Part shown: piece by piece, positions 247 to 18,508 of the stretch
Position numbering within the stretch: position 1 is the first letter of the stretch
Layout: every line of letters begins with the position of its first letter
Assembly (NCBI GenBank): GCA_024401305.1
Contig: JAKSLI010000039.1
Span: 1 to 32,588, forward strand
Origin: Bacteroidaceae bacterium
GTDB taxonomy: Bacteria; Bacteroidota; Bacteroidia; Bacteroidales; Bacteroidaceae
Direction: 5' to 3'
Length of the DNA: 32,588 bases
The notes under the pieces: model-generated
The model's database searches: none
What the model saw: only the letters and a program-made list of their open reading frames with translations
What the model was told of the DNA's origin: nothing
Program-made: the position numbers and the translations under genes

Positions 247-2991
247 ATGAAGAAACTCTTTTTGTATGCAGCCGTCCTTTGTATGGGCTTTGCATCTTGC
301 TCGAAGGAATTCCTTGTTCCTGAGGGCGAACTGCCTTCTTGGCTAGGCGAGAGCATTTATGAGGAACTTCAGAATCCGAAGTCGCTGGACGGTACGTTCA
401 ACACGTATCTCAAGCTTATCGACGACCTTGGATATGCGGAAGTTCTTGGTAAGACCGGTAGTAAGACCATCTTTCCTGCAAACGACGAGGCTTTTGCCGA
501 GTTCTTTAAGGATGGTAACAACAAGTTCGGTAAGTCAAGCTATGACCAGTTGACAATCTCTGAGAAATCACAGATTCTCTTCTCAACAATGCTTGACAAC
601 GCTGTCCTCGTTGGCAACCTTTCATCTCAGCAGAACGGCTCTGGTGAAATGGCTCAGGGTAGAGTTATCAAGCACCCTACAAACGTGTCTCTGCTTCAGT
701 CGGTTGAACCACTCAACGCAAATGAAATGCCAGAGAACAACCCAAGCTTCTCTTGGTGGAAGTCACAGGGCAAATCAATCAACGCGCTCTATGACAACAC
801 AGAAGCTCCAATGGTACACTTCACTGGTGAGTACATGCTCAACAATGCAATGACAGTGACAGGTACTGACAACGACTTCTATGTACTTACTGGTCAGGAG
901 TATGAAGATGGCGATGCTTTCGTGTTCGACCGCAAGGTTATCAACAGTAACGTCACTTGCCAGAATGGTTACATCCATCAGCTTGACGGCGTTATGGTTA
1001 ACCCTGGCAACATGGCTCAGATGCTTCGTAGCAACAGCGACACAAAGCACATCTCACGCATGATGGACTACTTCGCTGTAGCATACCCCATGGGACTCCA
1101 GTTCGATCAGGAATACCAGCAGTACGCTAGTGGCTTTGCAACTCAGGATTCTGTTTTCGCTTTCCGCTATCTCTCACAGAACTCTCAGGGCAATTCGAAG
1201 CTTAACGCAAGAACAAAGGGTGGTTCTATCGTAAAAGATGCAGCTATCTTGAACTTCGACCCAGGATGGAACTATTTCTCACCTGCTTCTTCAAGCGACA
1301 ACCAGGCAGAAATCTCTGCTATCCTCGCTGCTACTGACGATGTTATTGAAGATTACTTCATGCACGATGGCTCTTATATCGTGAAGAACCTCGGTGCACC
1401 TGGCGTTCCTAACGACGCTGCACATATCAACGAACACCTCGACGCTATCTACAACAACGACCCAACAGTGTTCGCTACTATGCTCAACAACATCATGAAG
1501 CCATACCTCTCAAAGTCTGTTCCAAGCAAGTTTGCTACTGTTCAGAATGACGCTTTTGAGTTCCTCAACGTAAAGAGAGAGGACATTGCCCGCAAGGCAG
1601 ATGGCAAATTCAATGTTCAGATTGCAAACAACGGCGTAATCTACAAGATGAGCAAGTTCTTCGGTCCTGAGCTCTACAACTCAGTTCTCGGTCCTGCTTC
1701 AATCTACAAGGATATGCGCATCATGGGTGGTATGCTTAACGACCACCAGATTACTCCTGGTACAGCTTCTACACTCGAAGCAGACATGTACTACTACCTT
1801 CTCTCAATGAAGGCAAAGTATGCGCTCTTCGTACCTACAGACAACGACAATTTCTATTACATCGACCCTGCATACATCAACGATGTTGACAAGAGAGCCC
1901 TCAAGTTCATCTATGACCCAGCATCTACTACAAAGTTCAAGATTCTTGTTCAGGTATGCAGCTATGACCCTGCATCTCAGTCGTTTACACCACACCCAAG
2001 TTTCCCTTCTCCAGTAGCAATCGAAACAGGTGCGTTCAACACTCAGATCAAGGATATGCTCAACTACCACACAGTGGTACTTCCTTCTAGTCAGAGCTCT
2101 CTTGGCGGCAACCACTACTACCTCACAAAGCACGGTGGTGCAATCTATGTTGCAGACGAAAAGGGCAGCAATCTCGGCAGCAGTACTGTTGAGGGTGGTG
2201 CACAAATCTCAGGCAATGCCAAGAAGTCTGTTGTAACTGAAATATTCAGCCAAGACAGTCCTGACGCAAAGATCACAAACGGTACTGTTTACCGCTTGAA
2301 CAGCCCTATCCAGCCAACTGTCAAGACAGTGTTCAACACTCTCAAGGAGAAGTCTCAGTATAACGACTTCTTCGAGTTCATCCAGGGTCTTAACGACAAG
2401 GAACGCCTTGACAAGTGCGGCATCACAAACCTCGACAAGTATCTCGTATTCGACGAAAACGACATGATGGCAATGCTCGGCACATACAACTACACACTCT
2501 ATGTACCAAGAGACATGAAGGATGCTTATTCTCACGGTCTTCCTTCTTGGGAGGAAATCGACAACATCATTGCCGACCGCGACGCTGACGAAATCTCTGA
2601 TGATGAGCGAGCAGTGCTCAAGCAGAAGATTGAGAAGATACGTAACTTCGTGCTCTATCATATCCAGAACAACTCTGTATTTGACGACACAAACATCTCT
2701 TCAGCAAAGAACGAGACATTCTACACAAACGAACTCGGTATCGCAAAGACTCTCTCACTCTCTAAGAATGGTGGTTCTACAGTAGTCAACGATGCAACAA
2801 CAGCAAAGACATCAAAGATTATCGAATCAAACATCTTGGCAAGAGACTTCTCTACAAAGCTTGATCCAACAAAGCAATTCAAGGATATTGATGGACAGCA
2901 GTTCACTTACAAGAGAATTGTTTCTTCATCATTCGTTGTGATCCACGGTATCGACAAGCCTTTGTGCTACAATTCTAACTATCAGTATTAA
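247..2991 (+). CDS. Surface lipoprotein with about four divergent fasciclin (FAS1) domains
   Basis: This 914-residue protein is probably anchored by lipid at Cys18 (lipobox F-A-S-C), followed by S-K-E, which fits the acidic export signal of Bacteroidetes surface lipoproteins. FAS1 domains show a first motif like TVFAPTDEAF and a second like GVIHxIDxVLLP. Such pairs recur here: TIFPANDEAF (about residue 75) with GYIHQLDGVM (about 240); AILAATDDVIEDYF (about 355) with GVIYKMSKFF (about 463); YALFVPTDNDNF (about 525) with YRLNSPIQP (about 682); and YTLYVPRDMK (about 749) with VVIHGIDKPL (about 898). That gives four repeats, the second being the least certain. FAS1 domains mediate adhesion or ligand binding. 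As the first gene of an operon with two SusCD pairs, it probably acts as a cell-surface binding protein; the ligand is unknown. The SusC gene follows after about 50 bases. Confidence 0.85.
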   Translation: MKKLFLYAAVLCMGFASCSKEFLVPEGELPSWLGESIYEELQNPKSLDGTFNTYLKLIDDLGYAEVLGKTGSKTIFPANDEAFAEFFKDGNNKFGKSSYDQLTISEKSQILFSTMLDNAVLVGNLSSQQNGSGEMAQGRVIKHPTNVSLLQSVEPLNANEMPENNPSFSWWKSQGKSINALYDNTEAPMVHFTGEYMLNNAMTVTGTDNDFYVLTGQEYEDGDAFVFDRKVINSNVTCQNGYIHQLDGVMVNPGNMAQMLRSNSDTKHISRMMDYFAVAYPMGLQFDQEYQQYASGFATQDSVFAFRYLSQNSQGNSKLNARTKGGSIVKDAAILNFDPGWNYFSPASSSDNQAEISAILAATDDVIEDYFMHDGSYIVKNLGAPGVPNDAAHINEHLDAIYNNDPTVFATMLNNIMKPYLSKSVPSKFATVQNDAFEFLNVKREDIARKADGKFNVQIANNGVIYKMSKFFGPELYNSVLGPASIYKDMRIMGGMLNDHQITPGTASTLEADMYYYLLSMKAKYALFVPTDNDNFYYIDPAYINDVDKRALKFIYDPASTTKFKILVQVCSYDPASQSFTPHPSFPSPVAIETGAFNTQIKDMLNYHTVVLPSSQSSLGGNHYYLTKHGGAIYVADEKGSNLGSSTVEGGAQISGNAKKSVVTEIFSQDSPDAKITNGTVYRLNSPIQPTVKTVFNTLKEKSQYNDFFEFIQGLNDKERLDKCGITNLDKYLVFDENDMMAMLGTYNYTLYVPRDMKDAYSHGLPSWEEIDNIIADRDADEISDDERAVLKQKIEKIRNFVLYHIQNNSVFDDTNISSAKNETFYTNELGIAKTLSLSKNGGSTVVNDATTAKTSKIIESNILARDFSTKLDPTKQFKDIDGQQFTYKRIVSSSFVVIHGIDKPLCYNSNYQY

Positions 2992-3041
2992 AAACGGAGT
3001 TTGTGAGTTTTACCTCTTTAACTCCCCTAATAATAAACAAT

Positions 3042-6000
3042 ATGTCCAAATCAAAAGTTCTGTTGACCCTGCTGTTCTGCATCATCGCACAATTCGCGAT
3101 GGCGCAAGGTAAGGTCATATCAGGTGTCATCAATGATGACTTCGGACCAGTCGTCATGTGTAATGTGACTGAGCGAGACGGCAACAACCGTATCGTTTCG
3201 GCTGCACAGACAGATATGATGGGTAACTTCTCCATGAAGATCAAAAACCCAAAGAATAAGTTGGTCATCACTTATGTAGGTTGCAAAACAAAAGAAATCA
3301 AGATTGGTGACGAAACAACATTCAACATTACTCTTGAACCAGAGACTACTGCCCTCGCAACGGTGGAAGTTGTCAGCAAGCGAGGCAACTCTGGCGGTCT
3401 TAACATCGACCAGCGAGAAATAACTCGTTCTCAGCAGACATTCAACCTCTCTGAAGTAGAAGGTATGGCATTCACCGATGCTTCCGAAGCACTTCAGGGT
3501 GAAATTGCCGGTCTTGACATCGTGTCAAACTCAGGTAACCTCGGTTCAGGTTCTTCAATGAAACTTCGTGGTGCTACAGGCAATCCGCTCATCGTTGTTG
3601 ACGATAAGATCTTCGACTACAACCAGGATGACATTGACCTCGACAATGCCGACAACGAAGCTTTCTCTTCTTTGCTTTCCATCTCAGTTGATGATATCGC
3701 TTCCATCAACGTACTCAAGGATGCTGCCGCTACTGCTATCTGGGGTAACCGTGGTGCTGACGGTGTTATCGAAATCAAGACTAAGCGTGGTGCTCGTGGT
3801 AAACCAAAAGTACAGTTCTCTTACAAGTGGACAGGTGCTTGGCAGCCACAGGGTTACGATATGCTGAACGGTGACAACTACACAATGATGCTCAAGGAAG
3901 CTATCTACAACCGTACTCAGAGTGCAGACGCCACATCAAAGATCAACGAAATCAACTATGTTACTGGTTGGGGCGACCGTTGGAACTGGAGCAACAACAC
4001 TGACTGGGTTGACGCTGTAAAGCAGTTCTCTAACAAGCATGAAGCTAACGTGAACATCTCCGGTGGTGGTCAGAAGGCTCAGTTCCGTATTTCTGCTGGC
4101 TACAACAACCAGACAGGTACTATCATCCGTCAGAGATTGGATCGTTTCACAACTCGTCTTGTACTCGACTACAACGTGTCTGACCGTATCCGCTTCTCTA
4201 CAAACTTCGCGTTGACTTACACAGACAACCTCAAGAACTACACAATGGGTGCATACGGTGACGACAAGCACACCAACCACATCCTTGCAATGGCATTTGC
4301 CCAGGCTCCTAACGCCAGCATCTACCGCCGCAACCCAGATGGTTCTTATACTGACGAATACTTCCTCATGAACCGTGTAATCGGTACTCAGGAATCAGGC
4401 GACTATGCAAACATCACTTCTTACCAGCTCGCTTCAATCGCGCGTCTTGGTAACCCTGTAGCTTACGCAAACCAGGCTTGGATGAAGGAAACTACTTACA
4501 ACATCCTTCCTGACTTCGAGCTCAAGTATGAACTTCTCGGCACAGGTGTTGATGAGCACCGTTTGACTTTCAAGGGTCGCGTTTACTTCGATATCTACGC
4601 TAACTCAAAGCCAACTTATCTCCCTGCAAGCCTTTTCAACGGCTACTACTCTGACAAGTATAACAACTATACTACAAACACAGAGCAGAACACTTACAAG
4701 ATGGGTGCTCGTGCAGAACTCACTTACACTCCTCACTTCAACAACAAGGATTGGTTCATGACAATGCTTGCTCGCTACGAGTGTAACACAGGTAAATATA
4801 CTTATCAGTTCATTGAACAGAACCAGGTTCCTAACGGTATCGAATCATCTACCATTGCTGCAAACCCACTTGGCATGAGCAACCAGCCAGGTTCTACTCG
4901 TAGTGCAGACCACAACTGGATCTACAACCTCCACACATCTTACAAGTCTCGTTATAGCGTGGGCTTCTCTCTCCGTGCTGACGGTTCTTCTAAGTATGGT
5001 CCTAAGAATCCTTGGTTCTATTCTCCATCTGCATCTGTTCGTTGGAATCCAAGTGAAGAGTCATTCTTCAAGCCTCTCCGCAAGTATATCTCAATGCTCG
5101 GTATCCGTGGATCATGGGGTATCAATGGTAGCCAGAACGCATCTATCAGCAACTACTTCAACCAATATACTACTACAAGCACTCAATATGGTGCATGGGC
5201 AATGGCTACGATGAGCGGTCTTAAGCTCGACGACCTTCGTCCACAGAAGAAGATTGGTACAAACATCGGTGTAAACCTTGGTCTCTTCGACGATATGATT
5301 GAGTTCGACCTCAACCTCTATCAGAACAACACCAAGGATATGATCATGAAGGGTATTCCAATCCCTACATCTGCAACTTGGAACACTACTACACGCCTTG
5401 ATTATGGTAATGTCGGTGAGATGCGCAACAAGGGTTGGGAACTTAACGTAAAGGCTAACAAGTTCATCAAGATCAACAAGTTCAGTGCTTCTGCCACATT
5501 CAACTTCGGTCAGGACAACAACAAGCTTCTTGAGATGGACAAGCGCGTGCTTGAGAACATCAACAGTATTCCTGTATATAGCCAGCGTGGTTCTAACACA
5601 ATCTACACTCACGTAGCTGTAGGTCAGCCTCTTAACTCTATCTACGGTTTCCAGTACAAGGGCGTATTCCAATACACTTACGACTACCTCCAGAACTTCA
5701 ACACTAAGATGAAGCAGCAGAATCCTAACTGGACAAGTGCTGACTATGAGAACCAGATCAACACTTGGCTCGCTGAAGGCAAGACATTCCCTATCGTTGT
5801 TGACGCAAACGGCAAGGTTGTCATGAACGGTACAAACCCACAGCGCCTCACTTACTGGCATGGTGATACTGAATACAACTTCCAGGGTGGTGATGCCATC
5901 TACGAAGACACAAACAACGACGGTACAATCAACGACCTCGACCTCAAGTATCTTGGCAACTCTCGTCCAAAGCTTCAGGGTGGTTTCAGCTTTACATTCC

Positions 6001-6455
6001 AATATGGCAACTGGAAGCTCGTTTCTCGTTTCACTTACCGCTATGGTGTTGACATCATCAACGCTGCTCGTATGAACCTCGAAAGCATGTACGGCACAGA
6101 AAACCAGATTTCTACCGTAACTTACCGTTGGCGTAAGGATGGCGATGAGACAATGATTCCACGCGCTCTTTGGAACGCTGGTTACAACTATCAGATGTCT
6201 TCTCGTTATGTAGAGGATGGATCTTTCCTCCGTTTCCAGAACATTCAGGTTTCTTACAGCTTCCCTAAGAAGCAGCTTAAGAAATTCGGTTTGACTCAGC
6301 TTTCTGCTTATTTGACTATGAACCGTCTGTTCACTTTCACAAAGTATTCAGGTCTTGACCCAGAAAAGTCTTGCGGACAGTGGGCTCCAGCTATCGACTC
6401 AAACGGTACTCCTGTTGACCGTTCAGTCACAGCCAGCTTGACAATCGGTTTCTAA
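3042..6455 (+). CDS. SusC/RagA-type TonB-dependent outer-membrane transporter (first pair)
   Basis: This is a 1137-residue outer-membrane transporter that would move oligomers or other large ligands into the periplasm using TonB energy. It has a signal peptide ending near A-M-A-Q, a carboxypeptidase-regulatory-like domain (about residues 22-105), a plug domain (about 110-245) with the SusC hallmark VLKDAAATAIWGNRGADGV near residue 224, and a long beta-barrel ending in the outer-membrane C-terminal Phe (TIGF). A calcium-type loop DTNNDGTINDLD near residue 956 is typical of SusC barrels. The plug carries an unusual Asp-rich insertion (DYNQDDIDLDNADNEAF). The reading frame is open back to a GTG at 3003, but ATG 3042 gives a normal signal peptide directly, so I chose it. 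The SusD partner follows after 35 bases. Confidence 0.96.
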   Translation: MSKSKVLLTLLFCIIAQFAMAQGKVISGVINDDFGPVVMCNVTERDGNNRIVSAAQTDMMGNFSMKIKNPKNKLVITYVGCKTKEIKIGDETTFNITLEPETTALATVEVVSKRGNSGGLNIDQREITRSQQTFNLSEVEGMAFTDASEALQGEIAGLDIVSNSGNLGSGSSMKLRGATGNPLIVVDDKIFDYNQDDIDLDNADNEAFSSLLSISVDDIASINVLKDAAATAIWGNRGADGVIEIKTKRGARGKPKVQFSYKWTGAWQPQGYDMLNGDNYTMMLKEAIYNRTQSADATSKINEINYVTGWGDRWNWSNNTDWVDAVKQFSNKHEANVNISGGGQKAQFRISAGYNNQTGTIIRQRLDRFTTRLVLDYNVSDRIRFSTNFALTYTDNLKNYTMGAYGDDKHTNHILAMAFAQAPNASIYRRNPDGSYTDEYFLMNRVIGTQESGDYANITSYQLASIARLGNPVAYANQAWMKETTYNILPDFELKYELLGTGVDEHRLTFKGRVYFDIYANSKPTYLPASLFNGYYSDKYNNYTTNTEQNTYKMGARAELTYTPHFNNKDWFMTMLARYECNTGKYTYQFIEQNQVPNGIESSTIAANPLGMSNQPGSTRSADHNWIYNLHTSYKSRYSVGFSLRADGSSKYGPKNPWFYSPSASVRWNPSEESFFKPLRKYISMLGIRGSWGINGSQNASISNYFNQYTTTSTQYGAWAMATMSGLKLDDLRPQKKIGTNIGVNLGLFDDMIEFDLNLYQNNTKDMIMKGIPIPTSATWNTTTRLDYGNVGEMRNKGWELNVKANKFIKINKFSASATFNFGQDNNKLLEMDKRVLENINSIPVYSQRGSNTIYTHVAVGQPLNSIYGFQYKGVFQYTYDYLQNFNTKMKQQNPNWTSADYENQINTWLAEGKTFPIVVDANGKVVMNGTNPQRLTYWHGDTEYNFQGGDAIYEDTNNDGTINDLDLKYLGNSRPKLQGGFSFTFQYGNWKLVSRFTYRYGVDIINAARMNLESMYGTENQISTVTYRWRKDGDETMIPRALWNAGYNYQMSSRYVEDGSFLRFQNIQVSYSFPKKQLKKFGLTQLSAYLTMNRLFTFTKYSGLDPEKSCGQWAPAIDSNGTPVDRSVTASLTIGF

Positions 6456-6490
6456 TCTTATTCTTAGACACATTATATAATATTATATAT

Positions 6491-8233
6491 ATGAAAAAGA
6501 TATTTTCAATTATACTGGCAAGCGTAGCACTGTCATCTTGCGTTGACACTGTGATTCTTCCAGAAAACAAGACCCTTGACGAGGACTTCTGGAAGAAGAA
6601 GACCGAGGTGGAAGCCGTTGTTGCTACCGCTTACGCGCAACTTCGTGACGGAGCAACTGCTGCAGGAACAACATCGTTCCAGCGCAATGCCATCGTTTGG
6701 GGTAGTTTCCGTTCTGATGAAATGGTAGTATCTTCAGACTTCAAGTCTATCAATGCCGTTACAACAGGTCTTTCGGAAATCCACTCAATGAACATGAACC
6801 CAACAAATATGTTCACTCAGTGGTATCCTCTCTATTCTTGTATCAATTACTGTAACCTCGTTCTTGAGAAGGGTGAGGCTGTAATGATATCTGACCCTAA
6901 CTACACAATGGGTGACTGGCTAGCAAACAAGGCTCAGGTAACAGCACTCAAGGCTCTCTGCTACTTCTATCTCGTTCGCGTTTTCCGTGATGTTCCTGTA
7001 ACTCCACACGCATACGTGAACAGTAGTGACAACTTCCTCGAGCCACAGAAGGCACCTGCAGAGGTTCTCCAGATGTGTATCAACGACCTTGAGTCAGTTC
7101 TCAATGGTGCTCCTAACAATAACGCATACGGCGACTCTCGCGACCGTGGTCTCTTCAACAAGGATGGTATCAACGCCCTCCTCGCAGACATCTATCTCTG
7201 GCGTGCTTCCGTAAACCACAGTGCTGCTGATTACCAGAAGGCAGTAGAATGTTGCGATAAGGTAATCGCTGCCAAGAAGGCTGCACATCAGTTCAGAGGC
7301 TTCGGTAGCCAGAACAAGGAGGAAAAGGACTATTACCTCGCTGCTTACAACGAATACTATGATGACATCTGGGGACTTGGTTCAGGCTTCAACTCTAACG
7401 GTCAGAATGCTGAAGAAAGTATTTTCGAAATCCAGTACAAGGAGAATGGCATCACAAACACTGCCCTCTCTCAGATGTATTACGGCTATAACGCATACAC
7501 TTCAGGCTATGGTTATGTAAAGGCTACAAACATCTATGGTGACTACAGTGGTAGCGGTACAACTCCTAACGTGTTCAAGAATACTGTTGACCAGCGTCTT
7601 TTCGACTTCACTTACGGTGCTAACTCTGGTACAGAGCAGCACGCTATCCGTAAGTTTGTTGCAAAGTCAAAGGCTAACGATGCAACAGCATCTAATTTCA
7701 GCACAGAGCGTCGTGACTTCTCACAGAACTGGATTATCTACCGTCTAACAGATATTATGCTCATGAAGGCAGAAGCTCTCGTACAGCTTGCCGATGGTGA
7801 TGAGGAAAAGCTCATGGAAGCGTTCGACATCGTAAAGTATGTTAACGATCGTGCCCTCACAAACACTTCAGGCGCCCAGAACTTCAATGCCAACAAGGAC
7901 AAGATGGAAGAGTTCGTACTCATGGAGCGTGCTCGCGAACTTTGCTTCGAGGGTAAGCGTTGGTTTGACCTTATGCGTTACAACTACCGCCACATCAACG
8001 GCGTTCAGTATGACAAGACAATGGCACAGATCAGCGATGACCCATCTGCTTACCCAGCAAACTCAGCAGAGTTCTTCGAAATTGCTCACGCTAAGTACAC
8101 ATCAAAGTCTGCCATGAAGGCAAAGACTCCTACAGAGATTTATCTCTACATGCCTATCAACGAAGAGGAAGTGAAGATTAACACAGCACTTCACCACAAC
8201 CCAGCTTTCCCTTCAACAAAGAATAAAAAGTAA
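6491..8233 (+). CDS. SusD/RagB-family surface lipoprotein (first pair)
   Basis: This 580-residue protein is the lid-like ligand-binding partner of the SusC encoded immediately upstream. The lipobox L-S-S-C places the lipidated Cys at residue 17. The N-terminal region (LDEDFWKKKTEVEAVVATAYAQLR) has the SusD pattern with helical TPR-like packing, and the C-terminal region contains the signature ARELCFEGKRWFDLMRY near residue 480, which is highly characteristic of SusD/RagB. The length is typical of the family. Only 19 bases separate its stop from the next FAS1 gene, so it is clearly within the operon. The bound substrate cannot be read from the sequence. Confidence 0.96.
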   Translation: MKKIFSIILASVALSSCVDTVILPENKTLDEDFWKKKTEVEAVVATAYAQLRDGATAAGTTSFQRNAIVWGSFRSDEMVVSSDFKSINAVTTGLSEIHSMNMNPTNMFTQWYPLYSCINYCNLVLEKGEAVMISDPNYTMGDWLANKAQVTALKALCYFYLVRVFRDVPVTPHAYVNSSDNFLEPQKAPAEVLQMCINDLESVLNGAPNNNAYGDSRDRGLFNKDGINALLADIYLWRASVNHSAADYQKAVECCDKVIAAKKAAHQFRGFGSQNKEEKDYYLAAYNEYYDDIWGLGSGFNSNGQNAEESIFEIQYKENGITNTALSQMYYGYNAYTSGYGYVKATNIYGDYSGSGTTPNVFKNTVDQRLFDFTYGANSGTEQHAIRKFVAKSKANDATASNFSTERRDFSQNWIIYRLTDIMLMKAEALVQLADGDEEKLMEAFDIVKYVNDRALTNTSGAQNFNANKDKMEEFVLMERARELCFEGKRWFDLMRYNYRHINGVQYDKTMAQISDDPSAYPANSAEFFEIAHAKYTSKSAMKAKTPTEIYLYMPINEEEVKINTALHHNPAFPSTKNKK

Positions 8234-8252
8234 TTTCATACATTAATATATT

Positions 8253-10496
8253 ATGAATACCAAAATATTTAAGAAATTAGGCGCGTGTCTGGCTGTTGCT
8301 GTGATGGGAGCTATGTCTCTTACATCATGTTACGAAGAGCCTGACACTTCCCAAATCTTCGAGGCTGACCAGATGACTATCGGTGGTCTTATCTCGGAGC
8401 GCGAGGATCTCTCAGCATTCAATGCTTTGCTCGCCAAGTGCCGCTACGACAAGAAGATTTCAACATATCTTGAGTACACAGTCTTTGCACCTGTAAACGA
8501 CGGTGTCTCAGAATATCTTGACTCTCTATATAATGATGACAACAAGCGATTCCCACACAACGGTATCGCAGAAGCAGCAAACTTCACATCACTTCCAGTA
8601 TTGGACAAGGTTGCTCTCATGTCTGACTCTCTCTGCGAGGATATTGCCAAGTATCATTTCTCAGGCGAAATCTTCCAGCAGGTAAACATTGAAGGTGCTA
8701 CTACATGTAGTACACTCATCACAGGTCGTAGTGTTACTGCCAACACATTCGACTCAGGCAAATATGCAGGTAAGACTTCACTCAACGGTCGTGTTGCTAT
8801 CATCGAAGGCGATATTCAGGCTTCTAACGGTATGCTTCATGTATGTTCAGGCGTTATCCCACGCTCTGACCGTACTGTAAACGACCAGATGAATGTTGAC
8901 GGCCGCTTCAAGATCTTCTCAGAAGCTCTCCAGCGCACAGGTCTCGACAAGGTTGTTGTTCAGGAAAAGAAGGACACTACTTACACATTTGCAGAAACAG
9001 GTCCTACAAACCGTGACGGCCAGAAGCTCTACTGTCCTTCTGAATGTCTCGTTAAGTGGACAATCTTCGCTGAAACTGACGAAGTGTTCAAGTCAAAGGG
9101 CATCAACAACTTCGACGATCTCAAGAAGAAGTGTGCTGATTGGTACGGCAACTGTGGTGCTTGGTACGACTATATCAATGAAAAAGGTATCAAGATCAGC
9201 ACAGGCGATGACTATGAGAACGAGTTCAATGTTGTCCACATGTTCGTTGCTTACCACATTCTCCGTGCAGGTATGGCTATCGACCGTATCGTTTACGAGA
9301 AGACAGCAAGAACACAGGCTAACTGGAACTTCTGCTTCGGCTATGATCCACAGGAGTATTTCGAAACTCTCCTCCCTAACACTTTGATGAAGATTTGGCA
9401 GCTTAACTCAACTAGTACAAATGCCAACAACCGCACATTGCTCATCAACCGCTACCGTATGAACAACACTCTTACTGACCATATCGGTACTCGCGGTAGT
9501 GAAGCTACTCACCCTATCATCTTCCCTGGCGTTGAAATCGACCGTATTCCAAATGCTGACGGAACAATGAAGAGTGTGGAAACCCTCAACGGTTACATCC
9601 ACTGCTTGAAGGACATTCTCCTCTACGACCAGAATGCTGTCGATGCCCAGAAGGAGCGTATGCGTCTTGACTCTTCTACATTCCTCTATGAGATTATCAA
9701 CAACGGTATCCGTTTCATCACTGGTTCTGAAGCTTCTACACTTCTCGGTGGTGATGGCGATAACTCTCGTATGGCGTTCGACAATCAGTATTTCGACAAC
9801 ATCGTATGCTACAACCCAAGTACATACCTCGTATTCTGTTTGATGGGTGCATGGCGTGCAAACAACTCTGACCAGTTCCAGGGATGGGGTTCTTACGACT
9901 TCGCTATCAAGCTCCCACACGTTCCAACTGGTACATACGAACTTCGTCTCATCTACCCTCCAATGGCTCGAGGCGGTTTGATGCAGTTCTACCTTGGAAA
10001 CTCTTCAAACCAGTCAGACATGGTTGCTCAGGGCATCCCATTCGATGCTTGTGCAATGGCATCCGAGGGCAATGCTATGGGTTGGGAACCAATCCATGCA
10101 CGTACAGAAGAAGGCTACGAGGATTCTGACTATGGACTCTCTTCTGACCAGGTCATGAAGGTTCGTGGTTACATGCGTGCTCCAGCTTCTTTCTCTCGTG
10201 GTACTTACAACACAAACACTGACGATCTTGAGAAGTCATACGATCCAAACGACATCTATTCAGCAGCTGCCAATGTAGTTGGTTCTTCATCATGCCGCAC
10301 TGAAGGTGATGCTGCCGGAAACAATGTAATGCTCCGTTACATCATCTGTACTCAGAAGTTTGAGCAGGGCAAAGACTACTGGCTCCGAATCAAGAACCTC
10401 GTGAACGATGCTAACCTCGGTTGGTCATTCGACTTCATTGAGCTCTGTCCTGTAAGTGTTTCTACTAACCAGCAGATGTCTGAGGACTGGTATTAA
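8253..10496 (+). CDS. FAS1-domain surface lipoprotein with a C-terminal beta-sandwich-like domain
   Basis: This is a 747-residue lipoprotein (lipobox L-T-S-C, Cys26, followed by Y-E-E). Two FAS1 domains are visible: YTVFAPVNDGV (about residue 75) closing with GMLHVCSGVI (about 193), and WTIFAETDEVF (about 269) closing with GYIHCLKDIL (about 447). Residues from about 470 to the end form a different domain with alternating hydrophobic strands (for example IKLPHVPTGTYELRLIY) and a conserved-looking segment GIPFDACAM. I associate this C-terminal module with other Bacteroidetes FAS1 proteins, possibly a Pfam DUF, but I cannot confirm the family number. By position, next to SusCD, it is a likely surface glycan- or protein-binding component analogous to SusE/SusF. 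No catalytic motif is seen. Confidence 0.85.
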   Translation: MNTKIFKKLGACLAVAVMGAMSLTSCYEEPDTSQIFEADQMTIGGLISEREDLSAFNALLAKCRYDKKISTYLEYTVFAPVNDGVSEYLDSLYNDDNKRFPHNGIAEAANFTSLPVLDKVALMSDSLCEDIAKYHFSGEIFQQVNIEGATTCSTLITGRSVTANTFDSGKYAGKTSLNGRVAIIEGDIQASNGMLHVCSGVIPRSDRTVNDQMNVDGRFKIFSEALQRTGLDKVVVQEKKDTTYTFAETGPTNRDGQKLYCPSECLVKWTIFAETDEVFKSKGINNFDDLKKKCADWYGNCGAWYDYINEKGIKISTGDDYENEFNVVHMFVAYHILRAGMAIDRIVYEKTARTQANWNFCFGYDPQEYFETLLPNTLMKIWQLNSTSTNANNRTLLINRYRMNNTLTDHIGTRGSEATHPIIFPGVEIDRIPNADGTMKSVETLNGYIHCLKDILLYDQNAVDAQKERMRLDSSTFLYEIINNGIRFITGSEASTLLGGDGDNSRMAFDNQYFDNIVCYNPSTYLVFCLMGAWRANNSDQFQGWGSYDFAIKLPHVPTGTYELRLIYPPMARGGLMQFYLGNSSNQSDMVAQGIPFDACAMASEGNAMGWEPIHARTEEGYEDSDYGLSSDQVMKVRGYMRAPASFSRGTYNTNTDDLEKSYDPNDIYSAAANVVGSSSCRTEGDAAGNNVMLRYIICTQKFEQGKDYWLRIKNLVNDANLGWSFDFIELCPVSVSTNQQMSEDWY

Positions 10497-10513
10497 AAGC
10501 CACACCCCGAAAA

Positions 10514-10569
10514 ATCGAATCCTCGAATTATCGAATTATCGAACTATCGGATTATCGAAAAATCGAAAA
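10514..10569 (+). repeat. Tandem octamer array in the spacer between two FAS1 genes
   Basis: Seven consecutive, in-register 8-base units occupy this stretch. The consensus is ATCGAATT, with variants such as ATCGAACT, ATCGGATT and ATCGAAAA. TCG at positions 2-4 of the unit is invariant in all seven. The array ends nine bases before the start codon of the next FAS1 lipoprotein. Each unit contains the overlapping self-complementary words TCGA and AATT, so the RNA could form weak alternative hairpins. It has the form of a slippage-prone microsatellite within an operon leader. Confidence 0.9.
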
Positions 10570-10578
10570 GAACAAAAT

Positions 10579-12372
10579 ATGAAAAAAATAAATAAAATAG
10601 CAGCAATGGTAGTAGCAGGTCTTGCACTTGCTACCACCTCTTGTACCGACTATTCTGACTACAACACAGTTCCTGTTGATGCCAACCAGACGGCAAACAA
10701 GACTCTGTTTCAGAATATCTGCGACAACAATAAGCTCCAGGACTTTGCCGCTATCATAAAGAAGGCAAACTACGGATCAACCCTAAGCGCATCTCAGTGC
10801 TTCACTCTGTGGGCACCTATCGATGGCACTTACGATGCTAATGCCATCCTCGCCATGGATAGTGCAACAATCGTTGACCGCTTCATCAACATGCACATGA
10901 CTCAGTACTCACACCCTGTTTCAGGTAATGTCGATGAGCGCGTTATCACCATCAACTCAAAGCACCATAGCTTCACAAACACTACATTCGATGACTACCA
11001 GATCGTAGATGCTAACATCCCAGCAACTAACGGTCTTATCCACACTATCGATGGCGCTTCTGAATATCATCCAAACATCTATGAAGCACTTGATGAGATT
11101 GAAGGTTGCGATGAGTTCGTAAACTACCTCAAGTCATACGATGTTGAGTACATCGACACTCGTAAGTCTGTCGAAGGTCCACTCGTTAACGGACAGCAGT
11201 CATATCTCGATACTGTTTGGGCTAAGCGTAACAATGTTATAAGAAACATCCTTCGTGCTGACATCGAGGACGAGGACAGCTCATTCACTGTACTCTTCCC
11301 AACTGACAAGGCATGGAATGGCGCTATCCAGAGAATCAGCCCACTCTACAAGTACATCAGTACTGTTGACTACATGGATGTTTCAACATCTAACTTCACA
11401 AAGGCTGCTGCATCGGTTACAGCTACAGATGCCAAGGCAGCTAATCCAGTGAAGATTGATGGTGCGCTCTATACCGACTCTCTTCCAAAGTCACAGATTA
11501 CTCGCAACCTCGCGTTCTCTAACAGCTACCCTCAAAACAAGCCACTCCTTACAGGAACAGCTTCTGCAACTGACTCACTCTTCTCTGTAAGAGGAAACCG
11601 TCTCTCTAACACTCAGGAGGTTCTCGGCTACTGCGGTGACCTTCGCTCTATGAGTAACGGTTATGTTCGCACTCTCGATTCTCTCTGCTTCAAGCCATGG
11701 GAGACATACGAAACTGTTCGTTCATACCTTGCTCCAGAGCGTATTGTCGGTTTGAAGGCTGCGGCATCATATACTGTAAACACTTTCGGTCAGGACACAC
11801 TCGTTCGCAAGCATCCAGAGTTCTTCACAGAGCTTCCTGATTTCATTAAGTACATGATGTTCCCTGAGGGACAGGCTCACTTCCAGTACATCTCTACCGA
11901 CAGTATCAACATGTCTGGTGCTACAGCAAAGCCTGAACTCGACTTCGCTTTGAGAAATGTGCTCTCTACAAAGTATAAGATTTATGTAGTAATGGTTCCA
12001 TCACAGCTTAACGAGCCAGAGCGTCCTTTGTCAACAGACAAGACTGAAGTCAAGAACCTCTATCTTCGTTTCGACATGGCTTACACAGACGCCGACAACA
12101 AGCAGCAGTTCAAGCGCTTGAATGTGCCTGGTGCCAAGACCACAGCCGACATTGTTATCCAGAACGATGCCAAGTTCCATGTTGTGGAACTCGAATTCGA
12201 ATTCCCTATTTGCTACAGTGGTCTGGACGCATATCCTACATTGTTTATGTCAAACACTAAGTCATTCACTTCAAGTTCAAACCGTAACAAGTTTGAGCAG
12301 GAACTTCGCGTTGCAAGAATCTTCCTTGTTCCTGAAGGAGCTAACGACTATGTACAATCTTTGAAATTCTAA
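10579..12372 (+). CDS. FAS1-domain surface lipoprotein (third of the operon)
   Basis: Starting at ATG 10579 the product is 597 residues, with a lysine-rich start, a hydrophobic core and lipobox T-T-S-C (Cys22) followed by T-D. The frame is open further upstream to 10456, but that would overlap the previous gene and bury the signal peptide, so the internal ATG is chosen. Two FAS1-like units are visible: FTLWAPIDGTYD (about residue 75) closing with GLIHTIDGA (about 152), and FTVLFPTDKAW (about 236) closing with GYVRTLDSLCF (about 360). The remaining C-terminal part (about 375-597) is strand-rich and ends in RVARIFLVP, suggesting a beta-sandwich. The stop is separated by only three bases from the second SusC start, implying translational coupling. 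It is probably a surface ligand-binding accessory to that SusC/SusD pair. Confidence 0.83.
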   Translation: MKKINKIAAMVVAGLALATTSCTDYSDYNTVPVDANQTANKTLFQNICDNNKLQDFAAIIKKANYGSTLSASQCFTLWAPIDGTYDANAILAMDSATIVDRFINMHMTQYSHPVSGNVDERVITINSKHHSFTNTTFDDYQIVDANIPATNGLIHTIDGASEYHPNIYEALDEIEGCDEFVNYLKSYDVEYIDTRKSVEGPLVNGQQSYLDTVWAKRNNVIRNILRADIEDEDSSFTVLFPTDKAWNGAIQRISPLYKYISTVDYMDVSTSNFTKAAASVTATDAKAANPVKIDGALYTDSLPKSQITRNLAFSNSYPQNKPLLTGTASATDSLFSVRGNRLSNTQEVLGYCGDLRSMSNGYVRTLDSLCFKPWETYETVRSYLAPERIVGLKAAASYTVNTFGQDTLVRKHPEFFTELPDFIKYMMFPEGQAHFQYISTDSINMSGATAKPELDFALRNVLSTKYKIYVVMVPSQLNEPERPLSTDKTEVKNLYLRFDMAYTDADNKQQFKRLNVPGAKTTADIVIQNDAKFHVVELEFEFPICYSGLDAYPTLFMSNTKSFTSSSNRNKFEQELRVARIFLVPEGANDYVQSLKF

Positions 12373-12375
12373 CCT

Positions 12376-15300
12376 ATGAAGAGTAATATATTAAACTTCC
12401 TACAGAGCAAAGGGGTTGCAGTTGCTATGCTTTGTGCAATCTCGATGACATGCTCTACAGCAGCATACGCTCAGGATTTTGACGACGAGGCGAATGTCAC
12501 TGTCAAGAAAGCTCCTAAGCGTGTTGTTGACAATAACCCAACGCTTGAAGTTAAGGGTACTGTCATAGATCAGGCAACCAAAGCTCCTATTGCTGGTGTG
12601 CGTATTCAGACACTCAATGACGAGCGTTATGCTGCCATGACAGATGCCGAAGGTAAGTTCACTATCAAGGTGCCTACTTTTGCAACATCATTGTTCATTC
12701 AGGCTCCAAACTACCTTTCTCAGCAGGTTGCCATTCTCGCTAATGATGCAAGCCAGAAGATTGCTGTTCAAATGATTAGCGATGCTTTCGGCACAATGTA
12801 TGAGAACGGAACTACTTACACAGCAAAGAGCAGTTTCGTATCAAACGGCAAGGGCATCACTATCGACGAAGAAATCGGCTCTAAGCTCGGTGCTGATGTT
12901 CATACAGTAATGCATTCTGGAAATCTCGATCAGGGTGCTTCAATGTATATCCGCGGTATCAACTCCATCAACGCAAACTCACAGCCAATGATTATCGTTG
13001 ATGGTGTAGAGCTTGATATGCAGCGTGATCGTGGTTCGCTCCATGATGGCGACATCTTCAACATGCTTGGAACAATCTCTCCAGAAGATATTGACAAGGT
13101 CACTGTTCTCAAGAATGCTACAGCACTCTATGGTGCTCGCGGTGCAAATGGTGTTATCATCATTGAGACAAAGCGTGGTCATTCTATGGCTACTCGCATC
13201 GACCTCAAGCTCTCTACTGGTTTCACAAACATACCAAACTCTCCAACATTGATGAATGCCGACCAGTATCGTTCATTCGCTGTGGAGCAGCTCGGTACTA
13301 TTGCAAAGGTTCAGGAATCTCAGCTCAGTGCCAACACTATGCTCGATTTCAAGTTCCTTAACGACAACCCAAGCTCTTTCAGCTATCGCAAGTTCCATAA
13401 CGATACCGACTGGAAGGACTTCATCTATCGTAACGCCTTCACTCAGAACTACAGCATCAACGTTCAGGGTGGTGACGACATCGGTATGTACAACCTCTCT
13501 GTAGCATACGTTCAGACTTTGAAGAACATTAAGAACACTAAGTTCGACCGTATCAATGTTCGCTTCAACACAGACATCACTTTGCTTGACAATCTTATGA
13601 CAAAGTTCGATATGTCATTCTCAAAGTCTAACACTTCTCTCCTTGACGATGGTGTGCCAGCAGATCTTACTGCAAACCCTATCAACTCACCATCATTCCT
13701 CTCATACGTGAAGAGCCCATTGCTCAACCCATATCAGTACAACCACAACATTAAGGACTTCACAACTCTCCTTAGTGAGGCTGACGATCTCTATGAAGCT
13801 CTTGGCAGCGAGTATTCACTCTCTAACCCACTCGCTATTCTCCAGAACTCTAATGGCGACCGTAAGAACCGCAACGAGAACACTTTCTTCAATGTTACCA
13901 TCACACCTACTTGGCAGATCAACTCTCACTTGAAGGCAGCTTCTCACTTCAGCTACTACATCAACCGTAGCTCACAGGCTTACTATCGTCCAAACCTTGG
14001 TACAGCTTCATTCTTCATCCAGAACCTCGGTACTGTTTATTCTAAGGTTGCCTCTATCTTCAGCAAGGAGACAAACATCCTCAGCAATACTCATATCGAC
14101 TGGGCAAACAAGTATGGCGCTCATAACATCAATGTTACTGGTGGTTTCCGCTACAACTACTTCTACTATGACGGCAGCGACCTCAAGACGGAATATCAGG
14201 TACAGGGTAACGACGACAAGAACCCACAGCTTTCTGTAGGCACAAACGTTTACTCTAACATTGGTGGTATTGACGATGTATGGAAGAACATCCAGTGGTA
14301 TGCTAATGCAGACTATAGCTACATGAACCGTTACTTCGCTACAGTTTCTCTTGCTGCAGAAGCAAACAGCCGTTTCGGTAAGAAGGCTGCTGGCGGTCTT
14401 AAGGCATTCGGCACTAACTGGGCTATCTTCCCAAGCGTTCAGCTCGGTTGGGTGATGACTAACGAGAACTGGTTCCCTAAGACTCCTGCCATCAACTACC
14501 TCCGCATCAATGCTGGCGTTGATGTAAGCGGTAACGATGGTATCTCTAACTATGCTACATCTACAGCCTTCTCTGCAGTACGCTTCAACGGCACTCAGAT
14601 TGGTATGCAGCTCACAAACGTAGGTAACGATGAGGTTAAGTGGGAAACAACTAAAAAGTTCAACCTCGGCTTCCAGGCTTACCTCTTCAACAACCGTCTT
14701 GGTATTGATGCAAACTTCTTCATGCACAATACTAACGACCTCCTCTCTCTCAAGTCGTTCGACAACCCTATCGGTGGTATCAACAACTACTGGATCAACT
14801 CTGGTAAGATTCAGAACACTGGTTTCGAGGTTGGCATCAACGGCAAGCCTATCGCTACAAAAGACTGGCACCTTGAGATTGGCGCTACTGTAGGTCATTA
14901 CAAGAATGAAGTCAAGGAACTTGCTGATGGCGAATTCACTTCTTCTATCTATGGCAAGAACAACCTCCTCACTCGCGTTGGCGAATCAGTCGGCGTATTC
15001 TACGGATTTGAAACTCGCGACCATGTATTCAGCACAACCGCTGAAGCTGCTTCTGCAGGAAAGCCACACATCAACAGCAAGGGCATCGAGACAAACAATC
15101 TCTACTATGTTGACGAGTCAGGTGCAAAGGTTGACTATGAAGCTGGTGACACTTGGTTCGTAGATCAGAATGGTGACGGTTGCATTAGCGATGCCGACAA
15201 GGTTGTCATCGGTAACCCTAACCCTGATTTCTACGGAAACATCCATGCTTCACTCTCTTGGAAGCGCTTCAAGCTCAGCACTTCTTTCAACTATAGCCTT

Positions 15301-15720
15301 GGCAACGATATCTACAACTATCAGCGTTCTATCCTCAACTCTGGTTCTACACTCTACAACCAGCAGGTTGCTGAGGTTGGTCGTTGGCGTTACGAAGGTC
15401 AGATTACTGATCTCCCACGCGCTTACTATGGTGATCCTAAGGGCAACAACAACTTCTCTACTCGTTGGATTGAGGACGGCTCTTACATCCGTATGAAGAC
15501 TCTCACGCTCTCTTATCAGATTCCAATGCCTGAATCTTGGGAATCATGGCTTCAGGGTATCTCTATTTGGGGTGAAGCTCGCAACCTCTTCACGCTTACC
15601 AAGTATAAGGGCAACGATCCAGAGCTCAGCATTAGCAACAACCATTACTATCAGGGCATCGACGCAGGCTTCATGTCACAGGGTCGCCAGTTCGTAATTG
15701 GTCTCAATATTAATCTCTAA
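12376..15720 (+). CDS. SusC/RagA-type TonB-dependent outer-membrane transporter (second pair)
   Basis: This 1114-residue TonB-dependent transporter has a signal peptide ending near A-Y-A-Q. A charged linker leads to a carboxypeptidase-regulatory-like domain (about residues 55-140, GTVIDQATKAPIAGV). The plug follows with VLKNATALYGARGANGV near residue 244, a textbook SusC plug signature, and then a large beta-barrel. The calcium-like loop DQNGDGCISDAD lies near residue 930. The C terminus is NINL rather than a terminal aromatic residue, a minor variation. It differs considerably from the first SusC (for example in its longer N-terminal linker and lack of the Asp-rich plug insertion), so the two pairs probably handle different ligands rather than being a fresh duplication. 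It starts three bases after the preceding FAS1 stop. Confidence 0.96.
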   Translation: MKSNILNFLQSKGVAVAMLCAISMTCSTAAYAQDFDDEANVTVKKAPKRVVDNNPTLEVKGTVIDQATKAPIAGVRIQTLNDERYAAMTDAEGKFTIKVPTFATSLFIQAPNYLSQQVAILANDASQKIAVQMISDAFGTMYENGTTYTAKSSFVSNGKGITIDEEIGSKLGADVHTVMHSGNLDQGASMYIRGINSINANSQPMIIVDGVELDMQRDRGSLHDGDIFNMLGTISPEDIDKVTVLKNATALYGARGANGVIIIETKRGHSMATRIDLKLSTGFTNIPNSPTLMNADQYRSFAVEQLGTIAKVQESQLSANTMLDFKFLNDNPSSFSYRKFHNDTDWKDFIYRNAFTQNYSINVQGGDDIGMYNLSVAYVQTLKNIKNTKFDRINVRFNTDITLLDNLMTKFDMSFSKSNTSLLDDGVPADLTANPINSPSFLSYVKSPLLNPYQYNHNIKDFTTLLSEADDLYEALGSEYSLSNPLAILQNSNGDRKNRNENTFFNVTITPTWQINSHLKAASHFSYYINRSSQAYYRPNLGTASFFIQNLGTVYSKVASIFSKETNILSNTHIDWANKYGAHNINVTGGFRYNYFYYDGSDLKTEYQVQGNDDKNPQLSVGTNVYSNIGGIDDVWKNIQWYANADYSYMNRYFATVSLAAEANSRFGKKAAGGLKAFGTNWAIFPSVQLGWVMTNENWFPKTPAINYLRINAGVDVSGNDGISNYATSTAFSAVRFNGTQIGMQLTNVGNDEVKWETTKKFNLGFQAYLFNNRLGIDANFFMHNTNDLLSLKSFDNPIGGINNYWINSGKIQNTGFEVGINGKPIATKDWHLEIGATVGHYKNEVKELADGEFTSSIYGKNNLLTRVGESVGVFYGFETRDHVFSTTAEAASAGKPHINSKGIETNNLYYVDESGAKVDYEAGDTWFVDQNGDGCISDADKVVIGNPNPDFYGNIHASLSWKRFKLSTSFNYSLGNDIYNYQRSILNSGSTLYNQQVAEVGRWRYEGQITDLPRAYYGDPKGNNNFSTRWIEDGSYIRMKTLTLSYQIPMPESWESWLQGISIWGEARNLFTLTKYKGNDPELSISNNHYYQGIDAGFMSQGRQFVIGLNINL

Positions 15721-15765
15721 CGCAGATTATTCCCTCCAAATTACTCTCTAACGCAGATTATTCCC
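15714..15765 (+). repeat. 21-base direct repeat spanning the second susC stop codon
   Basis: A 21-base sequence beginning TCTCTAACGCAG occurs exactly at 15714-15734 and again at 15745-15765, a period of 31 bases. The first copy overlaps the last codons and the TAA stop of the second susC-like gene; the second lies in the spacer. The copy downstream therefore carries a duplicate of the gene's end. This points to a local tandem duplication that lengthened the susC-susD spacer. Confidence 0.9.
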
Positions 15766-15782
15766 CTCCGTTTTCGGAGGGG
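15763..15782 (+). promoter_or_regulatory. Intercistronic GC-rich stem-loop between the second susC and susD
   Basis: The arms CCCCTCCG (15763-15770) and CGGAGGGG (15775-15782) form a perfect 8-base-pair stem with a TTTT loop. No T-tract follows, so it is unlikely to be an ordinary intrinsic terminator. It sits 17 bases before the susD start codon. The CCCTCC at 15732-15737, produced by the neighbouring repeat, could compete for the same GGAGGG right arm. Likely roles are mRNA end protection or processing that sets susC to susD expression ratios; this is inference. Confidence 0.7.
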
Positions 15783-15799
15783 TCTAAAACCAAAAGAAT

Positions 15800-17758
15800 A
15801 TGAAACTAAAGAATTTATTCACAGCGATTGCAGTTGCTGCTCTTCCATTATCAGGAGCCCTTACCTCATGTTCCGATATGCTTGAGTCAGACAGTTCTCT
15901 GTTCGTTAGCGACCCTAACCTCAACCAGAAGAGCGACTCTGTATTCTATGCTTACGGCATCATGCAGGCTATGCAGCAGCTCGCCGACCAATATTATTTC
16001 CAGAACGAGATGCGTGGTGAGATTTCTGTGCCTACTGCAAAGGCTACAACACATCTCAAGAACCTCGCCAACTACTCGGCTGGTGCAGAATGTAAGTACG
16101 ACTCTGTTTACCTCTACTACAAGGTAATCAACAACTGTAACACTTACCTCCAGAAGCGCGACACAACGCTCATGTCTGGAACAACCAATGTCACTATCAA
16201 CGAGTATGTTGCCATTGCTGCTTTCCGTGCTTGGACTTACCTCCAGCTCACTAAGCAGTATGGTGATGTGCCTTATCTCACTACTCCTGTTCTTACAGTT
16301 TCTGAGATTAACGCAAAGACAGAGCACACACCTTACCGCACTATCCTTGCCGACCAGGCTCAGTATCTTCAGAATCTGAAGAACAGCTACAGCTACGAGT
16401 TCCTTCGCGTGCCTTACTATCAGGCATCAATCCTCATTGGCCACTTGAACTTCTCTAACTCTTTGACAAAGGTAATGTCGCCTTCAAAGTGCTTCTTCCC
16501 TATCAACATCGTTCTTGGCGACCTCTACCTTGAACTCGGCGAATATGAGAAGGCTGCTGAATGTTACCACGACTATCTCCTTACAGCTTCTAAGGAAGGT
16601 GGTATTCAGGCTATCAGAAACAACTACTGCAATATGCGTTACCCTCATGACGCAGACTACATGGAACTCCCAATGAACTACTATTCAGCAGAGAATACTG
16701 ATATTCGTGCAATTAACCAGTGGGACAATATCTTCTACCTAGGTGGTGAACCAGGCGATGAGGTTATCTCTTACATCCCAATGGCTGTAAACTACACTAT
16801 GGGACAGACTACTGATGTGCCTTACGCATTCGGTTACGACTACTATGCGAGCTCTTACAATCAGGTTTCTCGCTATACCATCTTCCGTTGTCCTGAGCAC
16901 AATGAGCCACAAATTCAGCCTTCTGCCGACTACATGAAGATGGTTAAGAATGCTCCTTTCTATTATGTAACAAACGAGAAAGACCCTCTGGTGCTTACTA
17001 CTCGCTACCTGACAAGCTCTACAAATGTAGGTGATGGTCGTGCTAACATGATTGTAAAGGGTGAAGGAAACGACTCTACAAAGCTCTTTGTTCAGAAGCC
17101 ATCAACAGGTTTCTTCTACATCTATCGTAACTCTACTGTCTATCTCCGTCTTGCAGAGTCACTCAACCGCATGGGCGAACCAGAACTTGCATTCGCTGTT
17201 CTCAAGAGCGGTATCAACTCAGAGCTCAAGCAGTATGTTGACACAGCATACGTAGAGGATTACAAGATTCCACAGGAGAACTACTATATTCCAAAGGCAT
17301 CTTACGACCGCATCTGTACTGGTAAGCTTGACTTCCTCTCTTCTGCAAATGTTTCTTATTTCACAAATGCAAACAAGGAAATCGTTGGTATCCATCAGCA
17401 TGGCGCAGGTATGGTAGCTGGTAAGGACGGTCTTCGTTCACAGTACAACTATGCAACTATCGTAGGCGCACGTATCGACAAGATCCGCAGCCAGTTCGCT
17501 CCAGAGAAGATTGGCGAGCCATACACTAAGGAAGAATACATCAATGCCGTTGAAGATCTCATTTGCGAGGAATACGCTCTTGAGTTTGCATTCGAAGGCA
17601 CTCGTTTCTCTGACCTCGTTCGTATAGCACGCCACAAGAACCTTGATAGCCCATACGGCGGTCAGTTCGGTTCTACATGGTTTGCTGACATCATGAAGGG
17701 CAACAACCCAGTGAAGTCGCTCACAGACGAGAACAACTGGTACCTCCCATTCAAGTAA
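15800..17758 (+). CDS. SusD/RagB-family surface lipoprotein (second pair)
   Basis: This 652-residue lipoprotein (lipobox L-T-S-C, Cys24, followed by S-D) pairs with the second SusC. The N-terminal half has the SusD helical pattern, including AFRAWTYLQLTKQYGDVPY (a hallmark helix with the G-D-V-P motif) at about residues 137-155. The C-terminal signature EEYALEFAFEGTRFSDLVRI lies near residue 590. It is somewhat longer than a typical SusD of about 500-600 residues. It is the last gene of the operon and is followed at once by a strong terminator. Its function is capture of the ligand over the SusC pore; the ligand is unknown. Confidence 0.95.
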   Translation: MKLKNLFTAIAVAALPLSGALTSCSDMLESDSSLFVSDPNLNQKSDSVFYAYGIMQAMQQLADQYYFQNEMRGEISVPTAKATTHLKNLANYSAGAECKYDSVYLYYKVINNCNTYLQKRDTTLMSGTTNVTINEYVAIAAFRAWTYLQLTKQYGDVPYLTTPVLTVSEINAKTEHTPYRTILADQAQYLQNLKNSYSYEFLRVPYYQASILIGHLNFSNSLTKVMSPSKCFFPINIVLGDLYLELGEYEKAAECYHDYLLTASKEGGIQAIRNNYCNMRYPHDADYMELPMNYYSAENTDIRAINQWDNIFYLGGEPGDEVISYIPMAVNYTMGQTTDVPYAFGYDYYASSYNQVSRYTIFRCPEHNEPQIQPSADYMKMVKNAPFYYVTNEKDPLVLTTRYLTSSTNVGDGRANMIVKGEGNDSTKLFVQKPSTGFFYIYRNSTVYLRLAESLNRMGEPELAFAVLKSGINSELKQYVDTAYVEDYKIPQENYYIPKASYDRICTGKLDFLSSANVSYFTNANKEIVGIHQHGAGMVAGKDGLRSQYNYATIVGARIDKIRSQFAPEKIGEPYTKEEYINAVEDLICEEYALEFAFEGTRFSDLVRIARHKNLDSPYGGQFGSTWFADIMKGNNPVKSLTDENNWYLPFK

Positions 17759-17776
17759 ACATTCCCTCTCATCAAT

Positions 17777-18506: not shown

Positions 18507-18508
18507 TT

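Follow-up and report, generated by a model that had tools for sequence, protein, structure and literature searches.

A conserved seven-gene FAS1–SusCD array of Bacteroidota, probably a two-transporter apparatus for glycan import

Introduction

What does an outer-membrane transport locus do that holds two SusC/SusD pairs and three fasciclin (FAS1) lipoproteins, with no enzyme or regulator gene among its seven genes? SusCD systems determine which glycans gut Bacteroidota consume, and loci without enzymes are easily overlooked by enzyme-based predictors. Here we analyse such a locus in a 32,588-nucleotide (nt) stretch of DNA from a Bacteroidaceae bacterium (the window), which is the entire contig C49 in a genome of 3.2 Mb and 86% completeness; both ends of the window are contig ends. 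Seven plus-strand open reading frames stand there in the order A-C1-D1-B-Cf-C2-D2, encoding FAS1, SusC, SusD, FAS1, FAS1, SusC and SusD. We conclude that they probably encode a two-transporter glycan capture-and-import apparatus in the outer membrane, for which the enzymes would be supplied from elsewhere. The cassette recurs in strict order in distant Bacteroidota and, within the window's genus, in up to four exact copies per genome, which would make it a widespread nutrient route in which FAS1 proteins, best known as adhesion modules, occupy the place of surface glycan binders.

Results

The seven genes are as follows (aa, amino acids).

247..2991, plus strand: gene A, FAS1 lipoprotein of 914 aa with several weak FAS1 stretches
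3042..6455, plus strand: gene C1, SusC-like TonB-dependent transporter (frame open from GTG 3003)
6491..8233, plus strand: gene D1, SusD-like lipoprotein (SusD_RagB 94.3 bits, cut-off 23.1)
8253..10496, plus strand: gene B, lipoprotein with two FAS1 domains and a C-terminal beta-sandwich, in the predicted fold resembling carbohydrate-binding modules
10579..12372, plus strand: gene Cf, lipoprotein with a predicted fold laid out like that of B (frame open from GTG 10456)
12376..15720, plus strand: gene C2, second SusC-like transporter, matching C2 and not C1 of other arrays
15800..17758, plus strand: gene D2, second SusD-like lipoprotein (SusD_RagB 32.2 bits, cut-off 23.1)

An earlier note on this DNA had read the same seven families in the same order, and the open reading frames and Pfam families bear this out. 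The Fasciclin family (PF02469, cut-off 22) was found in A, B and Cf at 41.6, 40.0 and 42.9 bits. Within gene A the FAS1 stretches at 850-999 and 2587-2838 each fall under the cut-off when taken alone, and such profile stretches occur in eight relatives too. The TonB plug domain lies above cut-off in both C1 and C2; the N-terminal carboxypeptidase-like domain of C1 falls slightly below (30.6 versus 32.2), and the Pfam scan did not match the barrel family for C1. Searches of the PDB returned SusC homologs for C1 (E 1e-84) and for C2, RagA among them. With the plug, SusD_RagB and the PDB SusC homologs in hand, C1D1 and C2D2 are SusC/SusD importer pairs. Translation of C1 and Cf likely starts at in-frame ATG codons (3042 and 10579, respectively), at which the signal peptides, judged by eye, begin; starting Cf at ATG 10579 turns the overlap of the B and Cf reading frames into an 82-nt gap.

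The two transporters are not copies of each other. C1 and C2 share 27% and 25% identity over aligned parts of 504 and 358 columns, and across arrays C1 matches C1 and C2 matches C2 far better than C1 matches C2. Simple tandem doubling is thereby rejected, as the earlier note had argued from the difference between the two SusCs.

We then asked how widely the arrangement occurs. A two-sequence profile of B, run against 60 genomes (that of the window included), matched 14, all of them among the 36 genomes within the genus (0 of 24 outside). To these, 80 named contigs were added from a second B scan, titled Prevotella, Prevotellaceae, Bacteroidaceae, Bacteroidales, Paraprevotella or Candidatus Colivivens, and all loci were labelled with positional profiles. 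Loci were collected via gene B, so that arrays without B are unrepresented. The exact order A-C1-D1-B-Cf-C2-D2 was found at 74 loci, or 69 distinct loci after removal of five duplicates: 26 whole-genome loci in the window's genus, including the window, and 43 on named contigs (48 of the 80 with duplicates included). Some of the 69 contain a broken or incomplete gene: A is in two pieces in L045, L001 has an A truncated at the fetched edge (the remainder lies in L136) and the D2 of L063 is truncated. The 11 genomes of the genus that hold any exact array hold one to four. The window's own genome carries a second, diverged array on contig C44 (6791-23865; L001/L136) in the same order, in which the best partner of every window protein stands at the same position; between these two arrays the SusC pairs are 40% identical, against 23-28% for C1 versus C2. 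A 1121-aa protein without Pfam match lies upstream of the C44 array, and an opposite-strand GH2 gene downstream. The animals given in the titles of the named contigs are herbivores, and cultured Prevotella communis E15-14 (locus L042) is among the carriers.

The other 32 named loci comprise 16 lone B genes and 16 loci of which most are cut by contig ends or have two or three consecutive B genes. Exceptions are L097, which lacks A-C1-D1, L073, where Cf was not called and lies beneath an opposite-strand frame, and L053, where B is split. Tandem duplication or triplication of B was seen within arrays L061, L067, L073, L089 and L113. One gene is split into two reading frames in L008 (SusC2), L045 (A) and L053 (B), by decay or assembly error. 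Within the genus, L031 is a diverged copy of the same layout whose fifth gene is an unlabelled lipoprotein.

Beyond the genus, a search of 394 genomes of the phylum, drawn from a larger group, gave a B match in 116 (the window's own genome included); the matches listed outside that genome span at most the first half of the B profile, and the majority may therefore be other FAS1 proteins. Nine of the top ten places were read, at about 38 kb each (the second place in G312 was left out). In seven of the nine the exact seven-gene order is present, and the top-scoring profile for every gene is that of its own position. The other two, in G328 and G061, have a six-gene version with one FAS1 fewer between the pairs; there the B profile gives the top score for the first FAS1 and the D1 profile for the last SusD, and positions are less clear. 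In these relatives (L191-L194) the second SusC is short, about 920-930 aa, and sialidase-like genes adjoin. The observation of the earlier note holds, and the 69 distinct loci and the seven distant ones extend it beyond what the window alone shows.

The seven genes also diverge together. Between-locus distances correlated for every one of the 21 gene pairs (r 0.909-0.951; 69 loci, J179 left out), the largest value in 200 permutations per gene pair being 0.154. Divergence is slower in the SusCs, whose mean identity is 51-54%, than in the FAS1 and SusD proteins (32-41%). The co-divergence and the positional matching indicate that the block was inherited largely as a whole and that the arrays are a single ancient co-inherited cassette.

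Signals at the two ends of the window's array and the spacing within arrays bear on transcription.

191..198, plus strand: putative −7 promoter element TTACTTTG, one mismatch to the Bacteroidota TAnnTTTG box
17778..17816, plus strand: intrinsic terminator, an 18-pair stem running into a T run (−21.1 kcal/mol, z −7.1, a value that none of 200 shuffles reached)

TAnnTTTG is the consensus of the Bacteroidota −7 box. Among the 67 of the 69 distinct arrays with enough upstream sequence, 41 have an exact box in the 200 nt ahead of A, against 1, 2 and 2 with one ahead of C1, B and C2, respectively. No exact box was found upstream of A in the remaining 26, and that of the window, being inexact, does not figure in the exact scan. 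The terminator was not listed by a consensus scan of the window. Intergenic gaps in the arrays (n = 414) have a median of 21 nt, 411 being 150 nt or less. The tight gaps, the box upstream of A and the terminator fit a single transcription unit beginning at A, and one operon is the best explanation of these sequence signals. The earlier note's view of one unit gains from the 69 loci, their gaps and their co-divergence.

The FAS1 proteins have the marks expected of surface binders. Lipobox-like signals were found in 117 of 129 B proteins and 89 of 90 Cf proteins, and in most FAS1 and SusD proteins overall. Structure models of B and Cf contain two FAS1 domains followed by a C-terminal sandwich that resembles carbohydrate-binding modules, and structure matches include the FAS1 domains of TGFBIp and periostin. 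Both genes follow D1, so that their lipoproteins adjoin SusD, and SusE/F-type binders are likewise encoded following SusD. We infer that the FAS1 lipoproteins may replace SusE/F-type surface glycan-binding proteins, and the suggestion of the earlier note that they are the surface binders finds support in the signals and the modelled FAS1 pairs and sandwich.

Lone B-type FAS1 genes, with no SusCD in the fetched stretch, make up L083-L086, L088, L092-L095, L099, L100, L103, L105 and L109-L111. In some hindgut Bacteroidaceae such genes flank a NAD synthase-like gene and sit before a ClpB-like gene. We scanned ten neighbouring proteins, including some around L097, and rejected them as a guide to function; the clear families (NAD synthase, ClpB-like, tRNA synthetase, poly(A) polymerase and dipeptidyl peptidase type) were uninformative.

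To learn what the arrays might import, we turned to their neighbours. Outer flanks were read to about 12-17 kb where contigs allowed, and Pfam scans cover selected flank genes; for the proximity tests, made in the 14 carrier genomes, matches were merged into genes by hand and rounded genome sizes were used. Rhamnogalacturonan lyases of family PL11 were enriched within 20 kb of arrays (8 of 58, 1.2 expected, p 2e-5; counted by locus, 5 of 34 array pieces, p 0.005), as were GH97 (5 of 52, p 0.004) and GH115 (3 of 33, p 0.03). GH10 was at chance (1 of 45), and GH28 gave 3 of 63 (p 0.13). Downstream on the same strand, 40 of 53 neighbours were scanned; among the matches listed were GDSL esterase (4), amidase (4), GH43 (3), propeller sensors (3), PL11 (2) and GH67 (2), and single GH115 and GH28 genes (25 of 51 families listed). 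In distant G066 the end of the array shares 10 nt with a rhamnogalacturonan lyase gene that overlaps D2, and genes of GH2, GH115 and an acetylesterase type are nearby; in L031 a pectate lyase lies 10 nt ahead of A, with a hybrid sensor farther upstream; and in L004, of the window's clade, a pectinesterase protein and a propeller protein are nearby.

Hybrid two-component sensors were found near L006, L026, L027, L028 and L031. The frequency of a same-strand upstream neighbour had suggested a hybrid sensor as the regular gene there, but this was not borne out: 38 of 47 such genes were scanned, most of them cut by fetched ends, and the 17 families found include no hybrid sensor. Directly upstream of many arrays lie large proteins of about 930-1300 aa that form homologous families (L117:9632-12463, L149:1251-4220, L155:678-3479 and L153:2184-5333; also L124, L126, L128 and L136), without Pfam match in those scanned. 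Several end, by eye, in a tail like the C-terminal signal of type IX secretion, and they are candidates for a partner or an enzyme of the system.

In the window itself no co-directional carbohydrate-active enzyme adjoins the unit and no dedicated regulator was found, on the right flank that is readable; to the left the contig ends. Rightward, on the opposite strand, are two adjoining deoxynucleoside kinase genes (17895-19175, minus strand) beside a gene with a tRNA-editing domain, then GH3, followed by a plus-strand gene of 693 aa without Pfam match. The earlier note's 'no enzymes or regulators' stands for the seven-gene unit but does not always hold for the neighbourhood, since several relatives lie beside plant-wall enzymes or hybrid two-component sensors. 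In 4-kb windows, GC content is 0.446-0.461 across the array (four windows), 0.448 in the mixed window 16001-20000 and 0.468-0.484 farther right.

Discussion

In the mechanism that we favour, C1D1 and C2D2 would be two separate lid-and-barrel importers powered through TonB, as the SusCD family suggests. A, B and Cf, anchored outside, would gather and present oligosaccharides through the sandwich and possibly through FAS1 surfaces, and the two SusDs would pass them to two barrels of different specificity. The oligosaccharides would be made and finished by enzymes encoded elsewhere, whether secreted enzymes, other loci or other microbes. A bolder version, which we regard as doubtful, has all seven proteins form one complex, a double-barrelled importer in which FAS1 proteins bridge two SusCDs of different specificity and so co-import two portions of a single acidic plant-wall fragment that differ in chemistry; FAS1 would then be a new surface glycan-binding and docking class across Bacteroidota. 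Two observations weigh a little against the favoured mechanism. The sandwich matches of B and Cf to carbohydrate modules tie, in the models, with unrelated folds. The block is also breakable, as L097 (5013-20977) demonstrates: it has B-B-Cf-C2-D2, and in place of A-C1-D1 a gene for a 1611-aa protein carrying an F5/8 type C domain stands ahead of them.

What, then, is the cargo? The most likely answer from gene neighbourhoods is plant cell-wall glycans. The earlier note had proposed a ligand needing no local cleavage, or a host or microbial glycoconjugate or peptide; the evidence for plant-wall glycans is stronger than that for a peptide or a host glycoconjugate. The strongest competitor of a plant-glycan importer is nevertheless close to that proposal, namely that the cargo is peptides (as for RagAB), muropeptides or host glycoconjugates, with FAS1 as protein- or host-binding docking parts. 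SusCD pairs that import peptides are known, RagAB being the example, and RagA is among the PDB matches of C1 and C2; TGFBIp and periostin, whose FAS1 domains appear among the structure matches, are adhesion proteins; the six-gene relatives lie near sialidase-like genes, and 4 of the 40 downstream genes scanned belong to a cell-wall amidase family. We nonetheless think it unlikely, because PL11, GH97 and GH115 are enriched near arrays, a distant copy stands beside rhamnogalacturonan lyase, GH115 and esterase genes, and the modelled sandwich domains of B and Cf match carbohydrate-binding modules.

A second competitor, quite improbable in our view, treats the FAS1 proteins mainly as adhesins or scaffolds by which the cell attaches to plant fibre or to neighbours, and the SusCD pairs as ordinary importers, co-inherited without joint function. 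Such a role would suit the B-type genes without SusCD in the fetched stretch (16 of 80 named loci), the tandem duplication of B in some arrays and the large upstream proteins with secretion-signal-like C termini, and the available text of a 2009 marine flavobacterial single-cell paper takes fasciclin domains as adhesion parts (PMC2668756). It sits poorly with the strict order, with the co-divergence of FAS1 with both SusCs and both SusDs, and with the position of B and Cf after D1, the place of SusE/F-type binders. Finally, a chance neighbourhood of unrelated genes is rejected by the 69 exact-order loci, co-divergence and tight gaps, and composition gives no support to a recently acquired foreign block.

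Within the plant-glycan interpretation, we tentatively propose that the window's clade imports pectic (rhamnogalacturonan-type) fragments. In a tree of C1 and C2 this clade holds most of the PL11-flanked arrays (4 of 7 loci versus 1 of 18 elsewhere, p 0.012, counting loci whose flanks were fetched, with the grouping made after seeing the tree). The C44 array of the same genome falls in a different clade, and the five GH97-flanked arrays are spread over two clades other than the window's. The clades have probably come to differ in specificity. PL11 is also commoner in carrier genomes (13 of 14 versus 7 of 22 non-carriers, p 4e-4). Several results count against pectin, however. GH10 follows PL11 (14 of 14 carriers versus 10 of 22, p 7e-4), and GH28 does so more weakly (14 of 14 versus 15 of 22, p 0.03); L037, the array most closely related to the window's, has, by eye, a GldN-like gene upstream; other array neighbours include families without evident glycan role; and the sialidase-like genes near the six-gene relatives (G328, G061) include one closest in the PDB to extracellular sialidase/neuraminidase chains. 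GH97 presence did not differ (13 of 14 versus 20 of 22). That PL11 and GH10 are both commoner in carriers marks these as plant-wall degraders in general, and because GH10 has the same phyletic pattern we do not accept pectin specificity from gene content. The proximity and clade tests back pectin only in part. A previously unknown polysaccharide utilisation locus (PUL) induced by rhamnogalacturonan, unk_2, is reported for X. ruminicola KHP1 in the available text of PMC11107044.

With the array, two questions become testable: the reason for two different transporters in one operon, and the ligands of bacterial FAS1 domains. SusCD loci and tandem SusCD pairs are already known. The parts of the open-licence PMC literature available to us gave no account of FAS1 proteins as regular SusCD partners or of the seven-gene order, and the available text of PMC7661554, PMC10199937, PMC4891872, PMC2668756, PMC1796856 and PMC6515357 does not describe the arrangement.

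Among known systems, the SusCDEF-type starch utilisation system and PULs resemble the array in that surface lipoproteins at the binder position come after SusC/SusD pairs, and plant-wall enzymes and hybrid sensors are found close to some copies of the array. The array differs in that its binders are FAS1 proteins, two different pairs share each operon, a FAS1 gene precedes the first SusC and the conserved unit lacks enzyme and regulator. Tandem SusCD xylan loci of the Xus type also combine two different SusC/SusD pairs in one locus. Their gene order is directly tandem, C-D-C-D, whereas the array has two FAS1 genes between the pairs at 69 exact loci and one before them, with GH10 at chance nearby (1 of 45). 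Two different SusC/SusD pairs are described for the S. copri xylan PUL in the available text of PMC11784079. A Gramella PUL resembles the array in having a FAS1 domain protein listed, in a figure legend of PMC4891872, within a SusD-bearing locus; that locus holds GH5, GH9 and GH26, and the comparison draws on legend and text, from which FAS1 number and order cannot be read. TGFBIp and periostin, multi-domain FAS1 adhesion proteins, are eukaryotic, whereas the bacterial FAS1 proteins carry lipobox-like signals and end, in the models, in a sandwich resembling carbohydrate modules.
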